Source: Pseudomonas sp. S09G 359 | GTDB taxonomy: Bacteria; Pseudomonadota; Gammaproteobacteria; Pseudomonadales; Pseudomonadaceae | NCBI RefSeq assembly: GCF_002843605.1 | Contig: NZ_CP025263.1 | Location: 5,051,501-5,115,500, forward strand | Reading direction: 5' to 3' | DNA length: 64,000 nucleotides | In this document: positions 19,546 through 55,322 of the stretch, piece by piece | Position numbering within the stretch: the stretch's first letter is position 1 | How the letters are laid out: each line of letters starts with the position of its first letter | Position numbers and translations under genes: made by a program | Notes under the pieces: generated by a model | Told to the model about the DNA's origin: nothing | What the model saw: only the letters and a program-made list of their open reading frames with translations | The model's database searches: none

Positions 19546-19650
19546 CAACCCCACCAGCCACACCCCGGCACACAATGTTCCCGCTGTGGCTGCTGCCTTC
19601 CGGCTCTGACCAGGTTCACGGGTAATCGTTGCGGGGGGACCGATGGGGTC
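19546..19650 (-). ncRNA. ffs: 4.5S signal recognition particle RNA
   Basis: On the minus strand the sequence contains the nearly universal SRP domain IV: GGTCAG, then AGCCGGAAGG, then CAGCAGCC. The flanks pair as expected for the long hairpin: ACCCCATCGG at the 5' side with GGTGGGGTT at the 3' side, and CCGCAACG opposite GTGCCGGG. The RNA binds Ffh and guides membrane protein targeting. The ends are set from the helix and may be off by a few bases. It lies alone between the muramidase and the metallopeptidase genes. Confidence 0.92.
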
Positions 19651-44684: not shown

Positions 44685-45079
44685 GGGGCATTCCAGGCTT
44701 TTCAGCAATAAATGAACGGGCGACGCATCGCCGGCTCGGTTTTCAATCAAGCACTTTTCTTGAAGAGTGCTCGCGTGGCACGAATGTGCCGTCCCACCCC
44801 GTCTACCGGGCCCTTGAGCCTTTATTGACGGGGCAGAGTGAATTTTTGAAGCAACAAAAAGAAATATTCCGACCCTTCGTCGAATAATAACCGACTGCAA
44901 CGAGCGGGCATTCTCACTAAAGGATTAAACCCATCCTCTTTGCAGGGTGCATCATAGCTGGCTTTGCCTAATAAATGGGGCGAAAAGCCATCCCAGCTTA
45001 TGGCTATAGCATCGTTATCGTTACGTGCTTATGACAAAACGATCATTGAATCCATGTGACCTATTGGTTAGAACTCAAC
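44685..45079. other. Spacer between rlmL and the rmf leader
   Basis: No gene seen in 395 bases. It must contain the divergent promoters of rlmL and rmf. Near rlmL are two small perfect hairpins, AGCACT/AGTGCT (44750-44771) and GGCAC/GTGCC (44777-44790), in the presumed rlmL leader. The middle part is AT-richer than the surroundings. Confidence 0.5.
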
Positions 45080-45215
45080 ACAGGTTGGCGCCGTAACGAC
45101 GCCGACACATAGGCTCGCCACGCCGGCAGCGAGCCCACCAACGGCAGAAAAACTCTGCCCGGCCCCAGACGAGGCCGAAGGATATCAAGACAGTCAACAA
45201 GTGAGGGAAACACCC
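45080..45215 (+). promoter_or_regulatory. Structured rmf leader (rmf RNA motif region)
   Basis: The 135 bases before rmf contain three hairpins in a row: GGCGCCG/CGACGCC-like (about 45087-45103), GGCTCGC/GCGAGCC (45112-45135) and GGCAG/CTGCC (45143-45158), then GGCC/GGCC (about 45161-45176). A conserved RNA structure called the rmf motif is known upstream of rmf in Pseudomonas; this region is the matching place and type. Exact agreement with the published consensus was not tested. Confidence 0.6.
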
Positions 45216-47946: not shown

Positions 47947-49398
47947 TCACGGAGAGATATCGCGATCCGGCCGTACGAACGCCCGTTGCACACGCTCGTA
48001 TTGGCTCGCAGTCAACGGCGGAGGCCCGACACCCCCCAGCTCATTGCCCACGGCCCGCGCCTGAATGACGAACAGGCGCACGGGGGCCGAACGACCTGGC
48101 AGCGTGCCACGCCCCTGCTCCGCGGTTTCTCGTCGAAACGCTCCCAGCCATAAACGCTTGCCCTGCGGCACGCGGACCACGCTATCAACGCTGATGCGTC
48201 CAACTGCGCCAGGCACTCCGCGACGCCCCACCTCAACGATCTGGCGGCCATCCTCGACATCAAGGCGCATTTCGATCTGGTTGGCCTCGGCAAAACGCGG
48301 CACTACGCTGACCTGAGTGCGATAACGCACGGGTTTCCAGTCAGCCTCGTCGCTTCCGGGCGCCGGTAGATAGAACGAGTGGTTATCCTGAAATACCGCT
48401 GGCACATTCTCTTGGGTGAGAATCACCGGCAACGTCACCACTCGCGCGCGCCGCCGGCGTTCCAGCACTTCGATTTGCGTGATCAAACGATTGTCGTCCA
48501 GAGGCTCCATGATTCGCGTGGTCGCCGCCTCGGCATCGCTGCCGCCGTCCAGGCCGAGTTTCTTCAGGTCGTCACGGTACATGTCCACCAGCCACAGGGA
48601 GACCTCGATGGATCGCTTGGGCACATCCAATTCCGCCACCAGCGCCTGGATAAAACGTACCTGCGCCGGTTTGCCCTTGATCAACAGGCTGTTGGTGTCC
48701 GGGTAGGCGATCACGCCTAGGTCTTTGTCGGCCAGCGGGCCATTGCGCTCGCTGGCCAGCAGGGTTTCGATCATCGACGCCATGCCCGGCACGTTGACCG
48801 GGCTGTCACTGCTGCCGTACTGCTGGTCCGCAACGTCGGAGTTGAGCACCTGGACCACCGCAAAGGCCTGCGCGCCCACGCGTAGATCCGCGCGTTGCCG
48901 GTCCATCAATTGGGCCAGGCGAAGCACCTGGTCTACATAGTTAGGCGGGCCGGACACATAGAACGTGCTCCCGGCGCTTTCGCGCAACGGGTAGCGTGAC
49001 TCATCGAGGCCCGAGCGGCGCATGAGGGCACGCAGCCTGTCGATGGAAATATGCCGCAACGCAACCGCCGAGCTTTTTGCTTCACTGGCGTCGTAGACGT
49101 AGAGCACTTGCCCGTCGCTATACCAGATCAGCGCCTGTTGCAGCGCAAGCGCCTCCAGGGTCTGCTGCGGAACGTCGAGATTCAGCATCCCGCTGAAGCG
49201 TTTGCGCGCCACTGCGCTGCTCACCACGATGGGCACGCCCAAAGGCACCGACAACGCAGTCAACACGGTATGCAGGCTTTCGTCCTGCGCCAGGTAGCTT
49301 TCGCCCCAGGCCATCGCATTGCTCAGTATCAGCACGGCAAACAGCAGCCAGCGACAAAGCCGGAGGCGGGGCATGGTTGCGGGGAATTCAGCGTACAC
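47947..49398 (-). CDS. sctC: Type III secretion outer-membrane secretin SctC (InvG-like)
   Basis: A 483-residue secretin with a signal peptide (LILSNAMAWGES, about residues 20-33), N0/N1-type periplasmic domains (residues 34-200, including YPDTNSLLIKGKPAQVRFIQALVAELD) and a C-terminal secretin core (VPAVFQDNHSFYLPAPG, then VRVPQGKRLWLGAFRRET). The two-residue spacing and LDVPKRSIEVSLWLVD motif are typical of the InvG/SctC group rather than of GspD or PilQ. GTG 49398 has AGGA eight bases upstream; ATG 49374 is an alternative. No pilotin, ring or ATPase gene is near. Confidence 0.88.
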   Translation of the reverse strand: MYAEFPATMPRLRLCRWLLFAVLILSNAMAWGESYLAQDESLHTVLTALSVPLGVPIVVSSAVARKRFSGMLNLDVPQQTLEALALQQALIWYSDGQVLYVYDASEAKSSAVALRHISIDRLRALMRRSGLDESRYPLRESAGSTFYVSGPPNYVDQVLRLAQLMDRQRADLRVGAQAFAVVQVLNSDVADQQYGSSDSPVNVPGMASMIETLLASERNGPLADKDLGVIAYPDTNSLLIKGKPAQVRFIQALVAELDVPKRSIEVSLWLVDMYRDDLKKLGLDGGSDAEAATTRIMEPLDDNRLITQIEVLERRRRARVVTLPVILTQENVPAVFQDNHSFYLPAPGSDEADWKPVRYRTQVSVVPRFAEANQIEMRLDVEDGRQIVEVGRRGVPGAVGRISVDSVVRVPQGKRLWLGAFRRETAEQGRGTLPGRSAPVRLFVIQARAVGNELGGVGPPPLTASQYERVQRAFVRPDRDISP

Positions 49399-49503
49399 CG
49401 TGGGTTTCCTGGGCAGCCTGGCGTTAAAGAGGTGGCCATACTGAAAGGCCGTCTGCTTTCAATCTTGATGGAAAGCTGACGGCCGGCTGCGCCTGTCGCC
49501 CCG

Positions 49504-49519
49504 TGGCATGTGCCTTGCT
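49504..49519 (+). promoter_or_regulatory. Sigma-54-type promoter upstream of nasS
   Basis: TGGCATGTGCCTTGCT fits the -24/-12 pattern TGGCA-N6-TTGCT with correct spacing. It precedes the structured nasS leader. Sigma-54 promoters are common for nitrogen genes, so NtrC-type control is likely. Confidence 0.75.
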
Positions 49520-49539
49520 ATGGACTCTGTATCACAGCG

Positions 49540-49627
49540 CGCACCAACGGCGGAGCGAGCTTACGGACAAAGGCGTCGTTACCTGCAATGGCTTACATCG
49601 CCATCTGAGGGAACGACGCTTTTTTTT
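49540..49627 (+). promoter_or_regulatory. ANTAR-responsive antitermination leader of nasS
   Basis: Two hexaloop hairpins and a terminator. P1: arms CGCACC (49540) and GGAGCG (49552) around loop AACGGC. P2: GAC/GTC around loop AAAGGC (49569-49574). Terminator: GCGTCGTT (49573-49580) pairs with AACGACGC (49612-49619), followed by eight T. Loops with A at position 1 and G at position 4 are the known ANTAR target form, and the P2 arm overlaps the terminator's 5' arm, so the two exclude each other. Predicted ligand: NasT. Confidence 0.7.
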
Positions 49628-49647
49628 GAAAGAAAAGGTAGGTCTTG

Positions 49648-50874
49648 ATGAACGATTCGGTAGGCAACAGCCCGATGAACGACCCGTTGGCCTGGGTAAA
49701 CGGCAGTGATGCCCCGGAAAAAAGCAGCCTCGACCTGGGCTTCATGGCCCTGAGCGATTGCGCTTCACTGGTGGTGGCCGCCACCCAAGGCTTCGCGCAA
49801 CCCTATGGGCTGACCCTGAACCTCAAGCGCCAACCCTCATGGGCCAACCTGCGGGACAAACTGGTCAGCGGCGAACTGGATGCCGCCCATAGCCTGTACG
49901 GGCTGATCTACGCCGTGCACCTGGGCATCGGTGGCGTGGCAGCCACCGACATGGCCGTGCTGATGGGGCTGAACCAGAACGGCCAGAGCATCAACCTGTC
50001 CCGGGGTTTGCAGGAGCAAGGTGTGATCACTCCTGAAGCACTGGACCGCCACGTGCACCAAAGCCGAACAAAACTGACTTTTGCGCAGACCTTTCCCACC
50101 GGCACCCACGCCATGTGGCTGTATTATTGGCTGGCGAGCCAAGGCATCCATCCCTTGCAGGATGTGGACAGCGTAGTGGTGCCCCCGCCGCAAATGGTTG
50201 CGCACCTGCAAGCCGGGCGGATCGACGGTTTTTGCGTCGGCGAACCCTGGTGTGCCAGCGCGGTAAAGCAAAACCAGGGGTTTACCCTGGCAACCACCCA
50301 GACAATCTGGCCGAACCACCCGGAAAAAGTGCTCGGCTGCACCCAGGCCTTCGTCGATCAGTACCCCAACACCGCTCGCGTATTGGTGATGGCGGTGCTG
50401 GAGGCCAGTCGTTTTATCGAGCAGAACCTCGAAAACCGCCGCTCTACCGCGCAACTGCTCAGCGGTCGCGACTACCTCGACGCGCCGCTCGACTGCATCG
50501 AACCGCGCTTGCTGGGCAGCTACGAGGATGGCCTCGGCAACCAGTGGCAAGACCCCCACGCGCTGCGGTTCTTTGCGGATGGCGAAGTGAACCTGCCCTA
50601 CCTCTGCGATGGCATGTGGTTCATGACCCAGTTCCGGCGCTGGGGCTTGCTGCGCGAAGATCCCGACTACCTGGGCGTTGCGCGCCAGGTTCAACAGTTG
50701 CGGCTCTATCGCCAGGCCGCCGACGCCCTGGGGATCACCGACAATGGCCGGGACATGCGTAGCAGCCAGCTGATCGACGGCAAGATCTGGGACGGCTCGG
50801 ACCCTGCCGCTTATGCGCGCAGCTTCCGCCTGCATGCCATGGCCGACCCTACCCATCGCCAAGCCTTGCGCTGA
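49648..50874 (+). CDS. nasS: NasS nitrate-sensing protein (CmpA/NrtA-like)
   Basis: A 408-residue cytoplasmic protein related to nitrate/bicarbonate ABC binding proteins (LGFMALSDCASLVVAATQGF, GLKLELDAAHSLYGLIYAVHLG-like region, GFCVGEPWCASAV). No signal peptide is seen, as expected for NasS, which binds NasT in the absence of nitrate and releases it when nitrate or nitrite is bound. ATG 49648 with AGGT upstream is preferred to TTG 49645. nasT follows after 13 bases. Confidence 0.93.
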   Translation: MNDSVGNSPMNDPLAWVNGSDAPEKSSLDLGFMALSDCASLVVAATQGFAQPYGLTLNLKRQPSWANLRDKLVSGELDAAHSLYGLIYAVHLGIGGVAATDMAVLMGLNQNGQSINLSRGLQEQGVITPEALDRHVHQSRTKLTFAQTFPTGTHAMWLYYWLASQGIHPLQDVDSVVVPPPQMVAHLQAGRIDGFCVGEPWCASAVKQNQGFTLATTQTIWPNHPEKVLGCTQAFVDQYPNTARVLVMAVLEASRFIEQNLENRRSTAQLLSGRDYLDAPLDCIEPRLLGSYEDGLGNQWQDPHALRFFADGEVNLPYLCDGMWFMTQFRRWGLLREDPDYLGVARQVQQLRLYRQAADALGITDNGRDMRSSQLIDGKIWDGSDPAAYARSFRLHAMADPTHRQALR

Positions 50875-50887
50875 CAGGAGCCCCCTT

Positions 50888-51463
50888 ATGCTGCGAATCC
50901 TGTTGATCAACGATACCCCGCGCAAGGTCGGTCGCCTCAGGGCGGCGCTGATCGAGGCCGGTTTTGAGGTGATCGATGAGTCGGGCCTGACCATCGACCT
51001 GCCCGCGCGCGTCGAAACGGTGCGCCCGGATGTGATCCTGATCGATACCGAGTCACCGGGCCGCGATGTGATGGAACAAGTGGTGCTGGTCAGCCGCGAC
51101 CAGCCCCGCCCAATTGTGATGTTTACCGACGAACACGACCCCAATGTGATGCGACAGGCGATCAAGTCCGGCGTCAGTGCCTACATCGTCGAAGGCATCC
51201 AGGCCCAGCGCCTGCAGCCCATTCTCGATGTGGCCATGGCTCGATTCGAGAGCGACCAGGCCTTGCGCGCGCAGCTCCACGCCCGCGACCAGCAGTTGGC
51301 CGAGCGCAAGCGCATCGAGCTGGCCAAGGGCATGCTGATGAAAATGAAGGACTGCAATGAGGAAGAGGCCTACACCCTGATGCGCCGCCAGGCCATGAGC
51401 CGGCAGCAGAAGCTGATCCAGGTGGCGGAGCAGATTATCGCCATGAATGAGTTGCTTGGCTGA
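50888..51463 (+). CDS. nasT: NasT ANTAR-domain antiterminator
   Basis: A 191-residue response-regulator-like protein. The receiver domain (residues 1-115, ILLINDTPRKVGRLRAALIEAG and an Asp in VILIDTESPG) is followed by an ANTAR RNA-binding domain (about 130-190, ERKRIELAKGMLMKMKDCNEEEAYTLMRRQAM). It is held by NasS and, when free, binds leader RNAs with two hexaloop hairpins to prevent termination. Two such leaders flank it in this window. Confidence 0.95.
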   Translation: MLRILLINDTPRKVGRLRAALIEAGFEVIDESGLTIDLPARVETVRPDVILIDTESPGRDVMEQVVLVSRDQPRPIVMFTDEHDPNVMRQAIKSGVSAYIVEGIQAQRLQPILDVAMARFESDQALRAQLHARDQQLAERKRIELAKGMLMKMKDCNEEEAYTLMRRQAMSRQQKLIQVAEQIIAMNELLG

Positions 51464-51465
51464 TT

Positions 51466-51481
51466 TGGCTCAGCTCTTGCT
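51466..51481 (+). promoter_or_regulatory. Sigma-54-type promoter upstream of the nitrate transporter gene
   Basis: TGGCTCAGCTCTTGCT keeps the GG and GC elements with the right 10-base spacing (TGGC-N7-TTGCT). It starts 2 bases after the nasT stop and precedes the second ANTAR leader. Confidence 0.65.
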
Positions 51482-51495
51482 AAAGAATCATCACA

Positions 51496-51577
51496 GGTAG
51501 CCAACGGCGGTTGCCCCTCCACGACAAAGACGTCGCACACCCGGTTTGCCCTCGCGAACCCGGTGGCGGCGTTTTTT
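51496..51577 (+). promoter_or_regulatory. ANTAR-responsive antitermination leader of the nitrate transporter operon
   Basis: P1: GGTAGCC (51496-51502), loop AACGGC, GGTTGCC (51509-51515). P2: CGAC (51522-51525), loop AAAGAC, GTCG (51532-51535). Terminator: GACGTCGC (51529-51536) pairs with GCGGCGTT (51566-51573), with an inner hairpin and six T. P1 has the same loop as in the nasS leader and the P2 arm again overlaps the terminator. Predicted ligand: NasT. Confidence 0.75.
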
Positions 51578-51671
51578 CGTTTTGGCCCCTTCGCGGGGCC
51601 GGTGGGGCGGCCCTGGCGGGCTGTTCCATCACCAGGCCTTCTTACAAGACTCCCAACCGTTGAGGTGCGTG

Positions 51672-52883
51672 ATGAAATCAAGCTTCTGGAAATCCGGGCA
51701 CACCCCGACCCTGTTTGCCGCGTTCCTGTATTTCGACCTGAGCTTCATGGTCTGGTACCTGCTGGGCCCACTGGCGGTACAGATTGCCGCTGACCTGCAC
51801 CTGACCACCCAGCAGCGCGGCCTGGTGGTGGCGACGCCGATCCTGGCGGGCGCGGTGCTGCGCTTCCTGATGGGCATGCTGGCCGACAAACTGTCGCCCA
51901 AGACCGCCGGTCTGATTGGCCAGGTGATTGTGATCGTGGCCTTGTTCGGTGCCTGGAAACTGGGCATTCACAGCTATGAGCAAGCCCTGCTGCTGGGTAT
52001 GTTCCTCGGCATGGCCGGCGCGTCCTTCGCGGTGGCCCTGCCCCTGGCATCCCAGTGGTACCCGGCCGAACACCAGGGCAAGGCCATGGGCATTGCCGGT
52101 GCCGGCAACTCGGGCACGGTGTTCGCGGCGTTGCTGGCGCCCGTGCTGGCCGCCGCGTTCGGCTGGAGCAATGTGTTCGGTTTTGCCCTGATTCCCTTGG
52201 TGCTGACCCTGATCGTTTTCGCCTGGTTGGCGCGTAACGCTCCTGAGCGGCCGAAAGCCAAATCCATGGCCGACTACTTCAAGGCCTTGGGCGACCGTGA
52301 CAGTTGGTGGTTCATGTTTTTCTACAGCGTGACTTTCGGCGGTTTTATCGGCCTGGCCAGCGCCCTGCCAGGCTACTTCAACGACCAGTACGGCCTGAGC
52401 CCGGTGACTGCTGGCTACTACACCGCCGCCTGCGTGTTCGGTGGCAGCCTGATGCGCCCGCTGGGTGGCGCCCTGGCCGACCGCTTCGGCGGGATCCGCA
52501 CACTGCTGGGCATGTACAGCGTGGCGGCGATCTGCATCGCGGCGGTCGGTTTCAACCTGCCAAGCTCCTACGCGGCACTGGCACTGTTCGTCTGCACCAT
52601 GCTCGGTCTCGGCGCAGGTAATGGCGCGGTGTTCCAGCTGGTACCCCAGCGTTTCCGCCGCGAGATCGGCGTGATGACCGGCCTGATCGGCATGGCCGGC
52701 GGTATCGGCGGCTTCGCCCTGGCGGCGGGTATGGGCGCCATCAAGCAAAGCACCGGCAGCTATCAGTTGGCCTTGTGGTTGTTCGCCAGCCTCGGCGTAT
52801 TGGCCTGGTTCGGCCTGCACGGCGTCAAGCGTCGCTGGAGAACCACTTGGGGTTCGGCCGCTGTGACCGCCGCACGCGTCTGA
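51672..52883 (+). CDS. nasA: Nitrate/nitrite transporter (MFS, NasA/NarK family)
   Basis: A 403-residue inner-membrane carrier with about 12 helices. The signatures NNP family 1 AGAGNSGTVFAALLAPVLAAAFGW-like segment and GGGNGAVFQL-like segment (read here GLGAGNGAVFQLVPQRF) identify a nitrate porter. ATG 51672 with GAGGTG is the start. Located after a sigma-54 promoter and an ANTAR leader. Its TGA overlaps the ATG of the next gene by one base. Confidence 0.92.
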   Translation: MKSSFWKSGHTPTLFAAFLYFDLSFMVWYLLGPLAVQIAADLHLTTQQRGLVVATPILAGAVLRFLMGMLADKLSPKTAGLIGQVIVIVALFGAWKLGIHSYEQALLLGMFLGMAGASFAVALPLASQWYPAEHQGKAMGIAGAGNSGTVFAALLAPVLAAAFGWSNVFGFALIPLVLTLIVFAWLARNAPERPKAKSMADYFKALGDRDSWWFMFFYSVTFGGFIGLASALPGYFNDQYGLSPVTAGYYTAACVFGGSLMRPLGGALADRFGGIRTLLGMYSVAAICIAAVGFNLPSSYAALALFVCTMLGLGAGNGAVFQLVPQRFRREIGVMTGLIGMAGGIGGFALAAGMGAIKQSTGSYQLALWLFASLGVLAWFGLHGVKRRWRTTWGSAAVTAARV

Positions 52884-54553
52884 TGAGCCTGCAACTAAGC
52901 GTCGCCCACGCCAGCGCCATCGGCCCACGGGCGGAAAACCAGGATGCCCTGCGGGTGGTCACCCCCGTGGCAGAACTGGCGGCGAGCAAAGGCTACCTGT
53001 GCGCCATGGCCGACGGCGTGAGCCAATGCGCCGATGGCGGCCTGGCTGCACGCTCGACCTTGCAGGCGCTGGCACTGGACTACTACGCCACGCCGCAAAC
53101 CTGGGGCGTGGCCCAGGCCCTGGAACGCTTGCTGTTGGCGCAGAATCGCTGGCTGCAGGCCAACGGCGGTGGCCAGCCGTTGCTGACCACCCTGAGTGCC
53201 TTGGTGTTTCGCGGCCAGCGCTTCACCCTCGCCCATGTCGGCGATTGCCGGGCCTACCGCTGGCTGGACGGTGAGTTGCAGCGCATCAGCGAGGATCACG
53301 TTTGGGAACAGCCGGGCATGCAGCATGTGCTCAAGCGCGCACTCGGGCTGGATCAACACCTGGTGCTGGATTTTCTGGATGGCCAGTTGCGCGAGGGCGA
53401 GTGTTTCCTGCTGCTCAGTGATGGCGTGTGGGCGACCCTGGGCGATCACAGCATCAGCGCCATCCTGCGAGAGCAGGTTGACCTGGATCTGGCGGTCAAC
53501 ACCCTGGTGACTGCCGCGCACTTGGCGGGCAGCCAGGACAATGCCAGCGCCCTGCTGGTGCGCGTCGACACACTTGGCGCAGCCACCCTCGGTGATGCGC
53601 TGGTGCAGTTGCAGCAATGGCCGCTGCCGCCGCCCTTGAAAGCCGGGCAACACTTTGAAGGCTGGCAGGTAGAAAGCGTGCTGGCGCACAGTCGACAGTC
53701 ATTGCTGTACCGGGTACGCGATGCCCAACAGCAACCCTGGCTGCTGAAAACCCTGCCGCTGAGCCGCGATGATGACAGCGACGCAGGCCAGGCGCTGTTG
53801 TCCGAGGAATGGTTTTTGCGGCGCGTGGCCGGGCGGGCATTTCCTGAAGTGCATGCCGCCAGCGGGCGTCAGCATTTGTACTACGTGATGCGCGAATACC
53901 CGGGGAAAACCCTGGCCGAATTATTCCAGCAACAAGGCCCATTGCCCCTGGCGCAATGGCAGTCGGTGGCCGAACGCTTGCTGCGGGCGGTGGGCATGCT
54001 GCACCGACGGCAGATCCTGCACCGCGACATCAAGCCGGAAAACCTGCTGCTGGGAGACGACGCTGAACTGCGTGTGCTGGATTTCGGCCTGGCTTACTGC
54101 CCAGGCCTCTCGGAGGACCGCGCGCACGTGCTGCCCGGCACACCAAGCTTCATTGCCCCCGAGGCATTCAGTGGTGAGCGCCCTACAGCCCAGCAGGATT
54201 TATACAGCGTGGGCGTGACCCTGTATTACCTGCTGACCGGGCATTACCCCTACGGTGAAATCGAAGCCTTCCAACGGCCTAGATTCAACCAGCCCATCAG
54301 TGCCAGCCGCTACCGCCCCGACCTGCCGGACTGGTTGCCGCTCAGCCTGGAGCGGGCCGTGGCGGCCCAGCCTGCACAACGCTTTGAGACTGCCGAGGAA
54401 TGGTTGCTGGTGCTGGAACAGGCTGACCGGCGAGAACTGAGCATCCGCCCCAGGCCATTGCTGGAGCGCGAGCCGTTGAAGGTCTGGCGCACCGTCGCGC
54501 TGATTTCGATGCTGATCAATCTGGTGCTGTTTTATTCATTCTTCCACCGCTGA
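52883..54553 (+). CDS. Fused PP2C phosphatase/Ser-Thr protein kinase with C-terminal membrane helix
   Basis: A 556-residue fusion. The N-terminal PP2C phosphatase (residues 1-230) has RAENQDALR, ADGVSQC, HVGDCRAY, SDGVWATLGD and QDNASALLV, the metal-binding set. A kinase domain follows (about 260-530) with HRDIKPENLLLG and DFGLAYC, and Lys in WLLKTLP, but its glycine loop is poor (LAHSRQSLLYRV instead of G-x-G). A single hydrophobic helix ends the protein. P. aeruginosa has a similar gene at this place. Substrate unknown. Confidence 0.9.
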   Translation: MSLQLSVAHASAIGPRAENQDALRVVTPVAELAASKGYLCAMADGVSQCADGGLAARSTLQALALDYYATPQTWGVAQALERLLLAQNRWLQANGGGQPLLTTLSALVFRGQRFTLAHVGDCRAYRWLDGELQRISEDHVWEQPGMQHVLKRALGLDQHLVLDFLDGQLREGECFLLLSDGVWATLGDHSISAILREQVDLDLAVNTLVTAAHLAGSQDNASALLVRVDTLGAATLGDALVQLQQWPLPPPLKAGQHFEGWQVESVLAHSRQSLLYRVRDAQQQPWLLKTLPLSRDDDSDAGQALLSEEWFLRRVAGRAFPEVHAASGRQHLYYVMREYPGKTLAELFQQQGPLPLAQWQSVAERLLRAVGMLHRRQILHRDIKPENLLLGDDAELRVLDFGLAYCPGLSEDRAHVLPGTPSFIAPEAFSGERPTAQQDLYSVGVTLYYLLTGHYPYGEIEAFQRPRFNQPISASRYRPDLPDWLPLSLERAVAAQPAQRFETAEEWLLVLEQADRRELSIRPRPLLEREPLKVWRTVALISMLINLVLFYSFFHR

Positions 54554-54578: not shown

Positions 54579-55322
54579 ATGAATGCAAAAGTCTGGCTGG
54601 TGGGCGCAGGCCCCGGCGACCCGGAGCTGTTGACCCTCAAGGCTGTGCGGGCCATGAACGAGGCCGATGTGGTGCTGATTGATGACTTGGTCAACCCGGC
54701 GGTATTGGAGCATTGCCTGGATGCACGGGTAATTACCGTCGGTAAACGCGGCGGCTGCCGATCAACCCCACAGGATTTTATCCACCGCCTGATGCTGCGT
54801 TATGCACGCCAGGGCAAGTGCGTGGTGCGGCTCAAGGGTGGCGACCCGTGCATTTTCGGACGCGCAGGCGAAGAGGCCATGTGGCTGCGCGAACGCGGGG
54901 TCGAGGTAGAGCTGGTCAACGGGATAACGGCGGGGCTCGCCGGTGCGACGAATTGCGATATCCCGCTGACCCTACGCGGTGTCAGCCGTGGGGTCACCCT
55001 GGTTACGGCACATACCCAGGACGACAGCCGCCTTAACTGGCGCGCATTGGCGGAGGGCGGGACAACACTGGTGGTGTATATGGGCGTGGCGAAGCTGGAG
55101 GAGATTCGCCAGCAGTTGCTCGATGGTGGGATGGCGGCGGATATGCCTGTGGCGATGATCGAAAATGCCTCGCTGCCCCAGCAGCGCGAATGCCGCAGTG
55201 AGCTTGCACGGATGTATGCGGATGCCCAGGCATTCGCACTGAAAAGCCCGGCGATCCTGGTGATCGGCAGCGTTGCCGCCAGCGGACAAGCCGCCTCCAT
55301 CGCGTCGGCTGCCAGCGCTTGA
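54579..55322 (+). CDS. cobA: Uroporphyrinogen-III C-methyltransferase
   Basis: A 247-residue SAM-dependent enzyme that makes precorrin-2, the precursor of siroheme (needed by nitrite and sulfite reductase) and cobalamin. Motifs are GAGPGDPELLTLKAV at the N-terminus, GDPCIFGRAGEE and GLAGATNCDIPLT. It follows the kinase gene by 25 bases and has a GAGG site. In P. aeruginosa the equivalent gene follows nirB, nirD and the nitrate reductase gene, which are missing here. Confidence 0.95.
   Translation: MNAKVWLVGAGPGDPELLTLKAVRAMNEADVVLIDDLVNPAVLEHCLDARVITVGKRGGCRSTPQDFIHRLMLRYARQGKCVVRLKGGDPCIFGRAGEEAMWLRERGVEVELVNGITAGLAGATNCDIPLTLRGVSRGVTLVTAHTQDDSRLNWRALAEGGTTLVVYMGVAKLEEIRQQLLDGGMAADMPVAMIENASLPQQRECRSELARMYADAQAFALKSPAILVIGSVAASGQAASIASAASA

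Follow-up and report, generated by a model that had tools for sequence, protein, structure and literature searches.

NasT is said to control the nasA/nasAB leaders of Azotobacter, reportedly from the work of Wang in 2012, and a nirBD leader of Pseudomonas aeruginosa was reportedly described by Romeo in the same year. ANTAR leaders, antitermination by NasT and the structure of EutV are already known (PMC3369931, PMC8934654, PMC3795266, PMC5424462, PMC7496416, PMC7801951). The eut, nasF and amiE antiterminators (Ramesh 2012, PMC3369931) have a pair of hairpins with six-nucleotide loops, P1 and P2, with A at position 1 and G at position 4 of the loops (A1/G4), an overlap between P2 and a terminator, and an ANTAR gene. 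EutV activity is lost when the linker between the hairpins measures 3 or 14 nt (PMC3369931) and, in vitro, with 20 extra linker nucleotides (PMC8934654). In Paracoccus, the release of NasT by the binding of nitrate to NasS is established, NasT shifts the nasA leader RNA, and a NasS-NasT pair goes with a leader ahead of the nitrate assimilation genes, as in the genome analysed here (PMC3795266). As for other species, P. putida depends on nasT for the use of nitrate (PMC7261876), and NasT hairpins were predicted for Bradyrhizobium narK, yet this gene is up in a nasT mutant under denitrification (PMC6759348). Nothing on nitrate was found in the excerpts of PMC2965389.

The window, i.e. the whole stretch of 64,000 nucleotides analysed in Pseudomonas sp. 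S09G 359 (contig NZ_CP025263.1), carries a leader of this architecture on its forward strand, between the stop of nasT (51463) and the start of narK (51672). Its P1 hairpin (51496-51515, GGTAGCC-AACGGC-GGTTGCC) is fully paired (7 of 7, including two G-U pairs) and is followed by a 6-nt linker (51516-51521), which fits the 5-12 nt range of E. faecalis eut, and by P2 (51522-51535, CGAC-AAAGAC-GTCG; 4 of 4 pairs). Both loops, AACGGC and AAAGAC, are six nucleotides long and show A1 and G4, kept in relatives. The intrinsic terminator (51526-51577) is built on the loop and 3' arm of P2, then T6; it starts inside the P2 loop and shares 51526-51535 with P2. The perfect 4-bp stem of P2 and the overlap of its arm with the terminator, both put forward in the original prediction, were thus recovered. 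Unlike the eut, nasF and amiE antiterminators (PMC3369931), the narK leader has a sigma54 promoter abutting P1 and a C-G closing pair, the P1 loop is here often AACGGC, and sensor genes lie within the regulon. Compared with the NasT systems of Paracoccus and Azotobacter, narK and nasST also carry leaders here.

The predicted folding energy of the leader (51492-51580) is -46.9 kcal/mol (z -5.70), equalled by 0 of 200 shuffles. A terminator scan left the narK terminator unlisted, and it was judged from folds: the terminator fold has -43.1 kcal/mol vs. -32.0 kcal/mol with P2 forced, which in the predicted structure costs the terminator stem its base, so that overlap and predicted energies alike make P2 and the terminator mutually exclusive. 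In the nascent RNA cut off at P2, both P1 and P2 are predicted to form. In the terminator fold, the U-run has AAA from the P2 loop as its pairing partner, which may account for a constancy of this loop beyond the needs of NasT binding.

Concerning the putative reader, nasT (50888-51463, + strand) codes for a protein with a receiver-like domain and an ANTAR domain (59.9 bits), the single ANTAR match of the genome, and ends 33 nt ahead of P1. Aligned with EutV (6wsh), NasT is identical at 7 of the 11 RNA-contact residues, as listed in PMC8934654, including the Tyr stacking on G4 and the Met plug, and differs at 4. A strict P1-P2-terminator finder gave 0 matches in 90.8 kb of other sequence from the same genome, made up of ten 3-kb loci and the window minus 49001-52500. 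Scanning the whole genome for the two-loop pattern alone was uninformative (79 + 106 matches vs. 129 + 115 for the reversed-pattern control) and was put aside.

Promoters of the sigma54 type follow the consensus TGGCACG-N4-TTGCW (GG-N10-GC), and their transcripts start about 12 nt past the GC element. Ahead of the narK leader, TGGCTCAGCTCTTGCT (51466-51481, +) has the -24 GG and -12 GC and agrees with 10 of 12 consensus positions; the nasST promoter, TGGCATGTGCCTTGCT (49504-49519, +), agrees with 11 of 12 and has the top score in the window, where 13 sites in about 128,000 positions score at least 10. Given the sigma54 spacing, the narK leader RNA would start at about 51492 (51492-51493), some 4 nt ahead of P1. 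A site scoring at least 10 precedes 78 of 78 narK and 79 of 80 nasS genes of named relatives, as well as 39 of 40 nasS genes in a second sample, and each of the narK, nasST, nasA and nirB leaders of this genome has a sigma54 promoter. A scan of 49400-51700 for sigma70 promoters found none. Expression of nasS and nasT drops in an ntrC mutant of P. stutzeri (PMC8443478), and sigma54 promoters have been predicted ahead of nasT (PMC12316311).

The original prediction had overlooked both this promoter and the identity of the leader in Rfam. The stretch 51467-51536 (+) matches the narK RNA family RF03032 with 80.8 bits (E 1.3e-13), above the gathering threshold of 43.2, and is a member of it; the nasS leader, with 37.6 bits, stays under this cut-off. 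About 15 positions at the start of the model read GGCaCAgcucUUGCU, which is the sigma54 -24/-12 promoter, while its structure line draws P1 only, leaves P2 without a helix and stops short of the terminator. The family, under its name or its accession, did not turn up in the literature searched, the coverage of which was partial, and its connection to ANTAR proteins may be in print elsewhere. The ANTAR leader reading offers a mechanism for this catalogued family.

The narK leader had been presented as the second of two ANTAR leaders with the same P1 loop on different stems, less than 2 kb apart. The other, on the same strand, comprises P1 (49539-49558, loop AACGGC on a mismatched stem), P2 (49565-49577, loop AAAGGC) and a terminator (49569-49627, T8), and lies upstream of nasS (49648-50874), which codes for an NrtA-like nitrate sensor. 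The P1 loop AACGGC is common to both leaders on unlike stems, and their P1 starts are separated by 1957 nt. The nasS P1 stem, CGCACC/GGAGCG, does differ from that of narK but holds an A-A mismatch and forms 5 of 6 pairs. When its 55-nt P1-P2 stretch is isolated, the predicted fold departs from the drawn structure; for the RNA from the inferred start, it equals the drawn P1-P2.

The nasS leader is present in this genome but not in all relatives. By the strict rule it was found in 27 of 40 genomes; in 6 of the 13 failing ones a promoter scoring at least 10 is no more than about 50 nt away from the start codon, which leaves no room for a leader, and in several of the remaining ones leader parts are visible by eye. 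Among 125 distinct nasS regions, 14 have their best promoter-like site less than 70 nt from the ATG (11 of these sites score at least 10). Since the leader is absent in part of the relatives, control of nasST by it would be lineage-specific. Two nasS leaders (L215, L233), inspected by eye, have a P2 loop ATAGNC on stem letters unlike the usual GAC/GTC (CAC/GTG in L233), a difference that looks like a compensatory change.

Different stems under equal loops had been taken as a sign of selection on a protein site, and freely varying loops as evidence to the contrary. As several leader tables demanded A1/G4 by rule, they are silent on loop constancy; for the counts given here, loops were chosen by their stems, without the A1/G4 letters. 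Some nasS picks of a first stem-chosen set were off register, and the nasS columns come from a re-read set: after 6 duplicates were dropped from 131 regions and the 14 with a promoter near the ATG were set aside from the 125 distinct ones, 111 were left, with P1 in 99 (4 two-register cases being kept out of the columns), P2 in 109, and one or both anchors missing in 12. These regions are related and the counts therefore not independent: the nasS P1 loops have A1 in 95 of 95, A2 in 89 and G4 in 93 of 95, position 3 being C in 73, T in 16 and A in 6, and position 5 G in 51, A in 32 and T in 12; the P2 loops have A1, A2 and G4 in 109 of 109, with A (62), T (37) or C (10) at position 3. In the named relatives, the narK P1 loop is AACGGC in 78 of 78 cases, and the P2 loop has A1/G4 in 77 of 78.

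Stem covariation was analysed on 36 chosen, distinct P1 stems, which cover the four genes as well as other genera, the leader types being mixed. The proportion of paired cells (94.4%) is inflated by the preselection of rows for pairing. Double changes occupy 77 cells vs. 24.1 after shuffling, and the covariation score is 0.846 vs. 0.249, with 0 of 500 shuffles as high and slid versions at 0.050-0.171; when pairs showing double changes are simply counted, their number (5) is not above that of the shuffles (384/500). All 36 stems are closed by a C-G pair. The stems thus change while A1/G4 stay, and exact loop identity is not needed: as read from the alignments, the constraint is on A1/G4 plus the C-G closing pair and not on the whole hexamer. 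The covariation expected of the stems therefore stands and the constancy of the full hexamer does not, the loops varying at positions 3 and 5 and hardly at A1 and G4.

A genome-wide search for nirBD or nitrate reductase targets, which had been proposed as a check, brought up leaders of both nirB and nasA. A covariance model of P1, linker and P2 (R1), made from 38 distinct narK, nasA and nasS leaders with the three of this genome included, scored 64.5 bits for narK, 54.8 for nasA and 37.2 for nasS in the genome (6.77 Mb, one contig), the next match having 21.2. The nasA leader (genome position 3797458 on) stands ahead of a gene for a 1328-aa assimilatory nitrate reductase fused to a flavoprotein. 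The nirB gene is divergent from nasA and has a sigma54 leader of its own, with P1 cggtc-AACGAC-gatcg, P2 caggc-AAAGAC-gcctg and a linker of 58 nt. Equal P1 loop letters, AACGGC, hold for narK and nasS but not for the regulon, where nasA has AACGCT and nirB AACGAC. A Guanidine-II riboswitch match was also recorded near a nasA locus (L061:3089-3139, minus strand, 43.4 bits).

The leader table, in which A1/G4 and GG-N10-GC were required, was passed by 48 of 50 narK, 20 of 20 nasA, 18 of 20 nirB and 3 of 11 nasS rows; its narK and nasA loci had been chosen for matching RF03032, and genomes G119 and G030 are each represented twice among the 50 narK rows. The two failing narK rows (L048, L050) have a leader visible by eye (no T4 run; P2 loop AACGAC). 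In 20 of 20 nasA rows (L041, L061-L080), P2 has an A-C mismatch at its second pair, and in the nascent nasA RNA a pair is predicted inside the P1 loop, with P2 not forming unaided. Linkers measure 6-14 nt for narK (48 rows), 5-12 nt for nasA (20 rows) and 22-69 nt for nirB (17 rows, a row with a doubtful P1 and a linker of 18, L071, being kept apart). The nirB leaders thus fall outside the 5-12 nt range and beyond the spacing tolerated by EutV, which makes them a natural spacing test. Most long nirB linkers of the species group (L041:3553-3810, minus strand, and L061-L079) contain a predicted hairpin; consensus folding of seven of them gave no double changes, and this hairpin is thus without covariation support. 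In a class-wide search, 135 of 274 genomes gave an R1 match by rough E-values; outside this genome, five of the matches listed exceed 27 bits, and the rest are below 26 and were taken mostly as chance matches. Use was restricted to sites having gene context.

The family RF00625, "Pseudomonas sRNA P11", is the nirB leader in two loci (L126:7941-8080, 126.2 bits; L083:5072-5210, 124.8 bits). Both matches share with the narK leader a sigma54 promoter at the start, A..G.. hexaloops and a terminator, and differ from it by a long P1-P2 linker, vs. 6 nt, and another P1 stem. RF00625 is over its cut-off (70) in 82 of 149 genomes of the genus; in 18 of the best 20 of these 82, as compared by eye, the narK leader is followed on its own strand by P11 at a distance of 3.1-3.3 kb, the two exceptions being G058 (another contig) and G041 (no RF03032 match). 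The nirB leader of S09G 359 itself has no RF00625 match at E values up to 1. In the window, matches to P18 (RF01671, 21.6 bits) and P11 (19.9 bits) were weak and were not used. P11 has been tied to a nitrogen assimilation operon in work on C. elegans avoidance (PMC12080996); from the same name and the same operon, this P11 would be the Rfam family.

At E 0.001, RF03032 was found in 129 of the 149 genus genomes (125 over the cut-off) and in none of the 14 control genomes. NasT was found in 127 of the 149. Both are present in 126 genomes and neither in 19, with NasT only in 1 and RNA only in 3 (Fisher p 6e-20, kinship ignored; G146 and G147 were scored NasT-less by elimination among the matches listed). 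These exceptions mostly dissolve. In the NasT-only genome (G041), the finder detects a leader and RF00625 is matched as well; the RNA-only ones are G043, where RF03032 is below the cut-off, G068 and G086, of which the first two carry a NIT-ANTAR protein. G086 has no ANTAR match, and its leader, likely a relic, precedes a nasA gene without its middle; at this locus (L297), tblastn matches cover residues 2-119 and 1240-1328 only.

As a whole, 7 of the 22 NasT-less genomes have leader RNA, assigned to RF03032 in G043, G068 and G086 and to RF00625 in G001, G018, G133 and G147. Five of the seven carry a NIT-ANTAR (NasR-type) protein with PF08376 and PF03861 (L284, L285, L286, L287, L288); no ANTAR match was found in G086 or in G133 (88%-complete), nor in the four leaderless NasT-less genomes examined (G003, G037, G065, G074). 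NIT-ANTAR relatives are encoded in 5 of 22 NasT-less vs. 2 of 127 NasT-bearing genomes (p 8e-4). In G001 and G147 (nirB leaders L292 and L295), P2 (GGAC AAAGGC GTCC) is kept and the A..G.. hexaloop of P1 is, by eye, lost; this, and a P1 loop starting with G in G043, count against a simple reader swap.

Across the class, 74 of 369 genomes encode a NasT-like protein, and 30 loci were taken, 28 of them outside the family (41-48% identity). The strict finder gave leaders at 8 of these 28 loci vs. 3 of 140 resampled controls (p 3e-5), and none at the other 20; three of the eight come from one genus with identical sequence, and six have AACGGC in P1. At the other end, the NasT of S09G 359 is 98-99% identical to those of, among others, P. 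orientalis (98), P. marginalis (99) and P. aylmerensis (99), which we take to be P. fluorescens-group species. Anatomy, P1 covariation around fixed loop positions, the adjoining nasT, the co-occurrence of RF03032 with NasT and the distant leaders together support well the originally proposed ANTAR leader, and on this sequence evidence the narK leader is most likely a two-hexaloop antitermination leader with NasT as its reader.

Downstream of the leader, narK (51672-52883, +) codes for a nitrate/nitrite transporter of the MFS type (TIGR00886, 308.3 bits, slightly below the cut-off of 311.7), directly followed by a fusion of a PP2C phosphatase and a Ser/Thr kinase (52883-54553, +) and by cobA, uroporphyrinogen-III C-methyltransferase (54579-55322, +). 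Such a fusion also lies behind narK in the distant genome G284 (L125, 38% identity). Elsewhere in the window, Rfam matches correspond to rmf RNA (45064-45198, +, 106.8 bits) and the bacterial small SRP RNA (19549-19645, - strand, 75.4 bits).

The best explanation, and a very probable one, is a leader started by sigma54 that terminates by default and is read through when nitrate releases NasT. Weighing against it are the 20 distant NasT loci at which the strict rule gave no leader, the 4 EutV contacts at which NasT differs, the long nirB linkers, the deviating folds of the isolated nasS stretch and of nascent nasA RNA, the plain double-change count and the rise of narK in the Bradyrhizobium nasT mutant. 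That the hairpin and T-run merely end the nasST operon, narK having a promoter of its own, is an unlikely alternative: the terminator does start just 63 nt past the nasT stop, but the sigma54 promoter lies upstream of it, so that any RNA begun there must pass the terminator. The same layout, moreover, is found in the divergent region between nasA and nirB, with no same-strand gene close upstream, and an operon end would not account for the constraint on the P1 and P2 loops and on the P1 stems.

Somewhat less credit goes to the idea that the conservation reflects the sigma54 promoter alone, over a constitutive attenuator with no protein reader. Part of RF03032 is indeed promoter, yet A1/G4 are fixed amid drifting loop neighbours, the P1 stems covary, and RF03032 tracks NasT over the genomes. 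Direct binding of a small molecule such as nitrate by the RNA, i.e. a riboswitch, appears the most improbable: although RF03032 is filed as a cis-regulatory RNA with its mechanism unstated in the search output, two tiny hairpins on a 6-nt linker show no conserved core past the loop positions, and an ANTAR motif match comes with an adjoining ANTAR protein gene.

For the NasT-read leader, the following sequence of events is proposed. A sigma54 promoter, presumably driven by NtrC and hence on under nitrogen scarcity, would start a short leader RNA at P1. By default, this RNA would fold into the terminator, engulfing the loop and 3' arm of P2, and transcription would halt ahead of narK. Nitrate bound to NasS would free NasT, which would grip the P1 and P2 hexaloops via A1 and G4 and keep P2 out of the terminator; read-through would then allow narK and the genes behind it to be made. 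The same switch would operate ahead of nasST, nasA and nirB and, as it also precedes nasST, nitrate should raise its own sensor in this genome.

The broader view, to which we assign an even chance, is that RF03032 and RF00625 form one class of sigma54 ANTAR leaders gating on both scarce nitrogen and nitrate, that NIT-ANTAR replaces NasS-NasT in some species, and that one NasT spans the 22-69 nt nirB spacings. If so, both transport and reduction, as well as the sensor in many species, would need nitrogen scarcity and nitrate together; the leader would outlive its reader, with a one-component NIT-ANTAR protein in place of NasS-NasT in some species; and a single NasT would work across spacings that EutV does not tolerate. 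The P11 of the worm-avoidance work would be linked to a terminated, nitrate-gated leader, a predicted connection that may already be in print. The value of the finding lies in an explanation for RF03032, in a regulon of four sites, each with its own sigma54 promoter, and in testable natural variants: as loop, stem and linker variants would be read by a nearly identical protein, the use of two hexaloops by the ANTAR dimer becomes directly testable. For nitrate assimilation in Pseudomonas, the transporter, reductase and sensor genes would thereby come under one RNA code.
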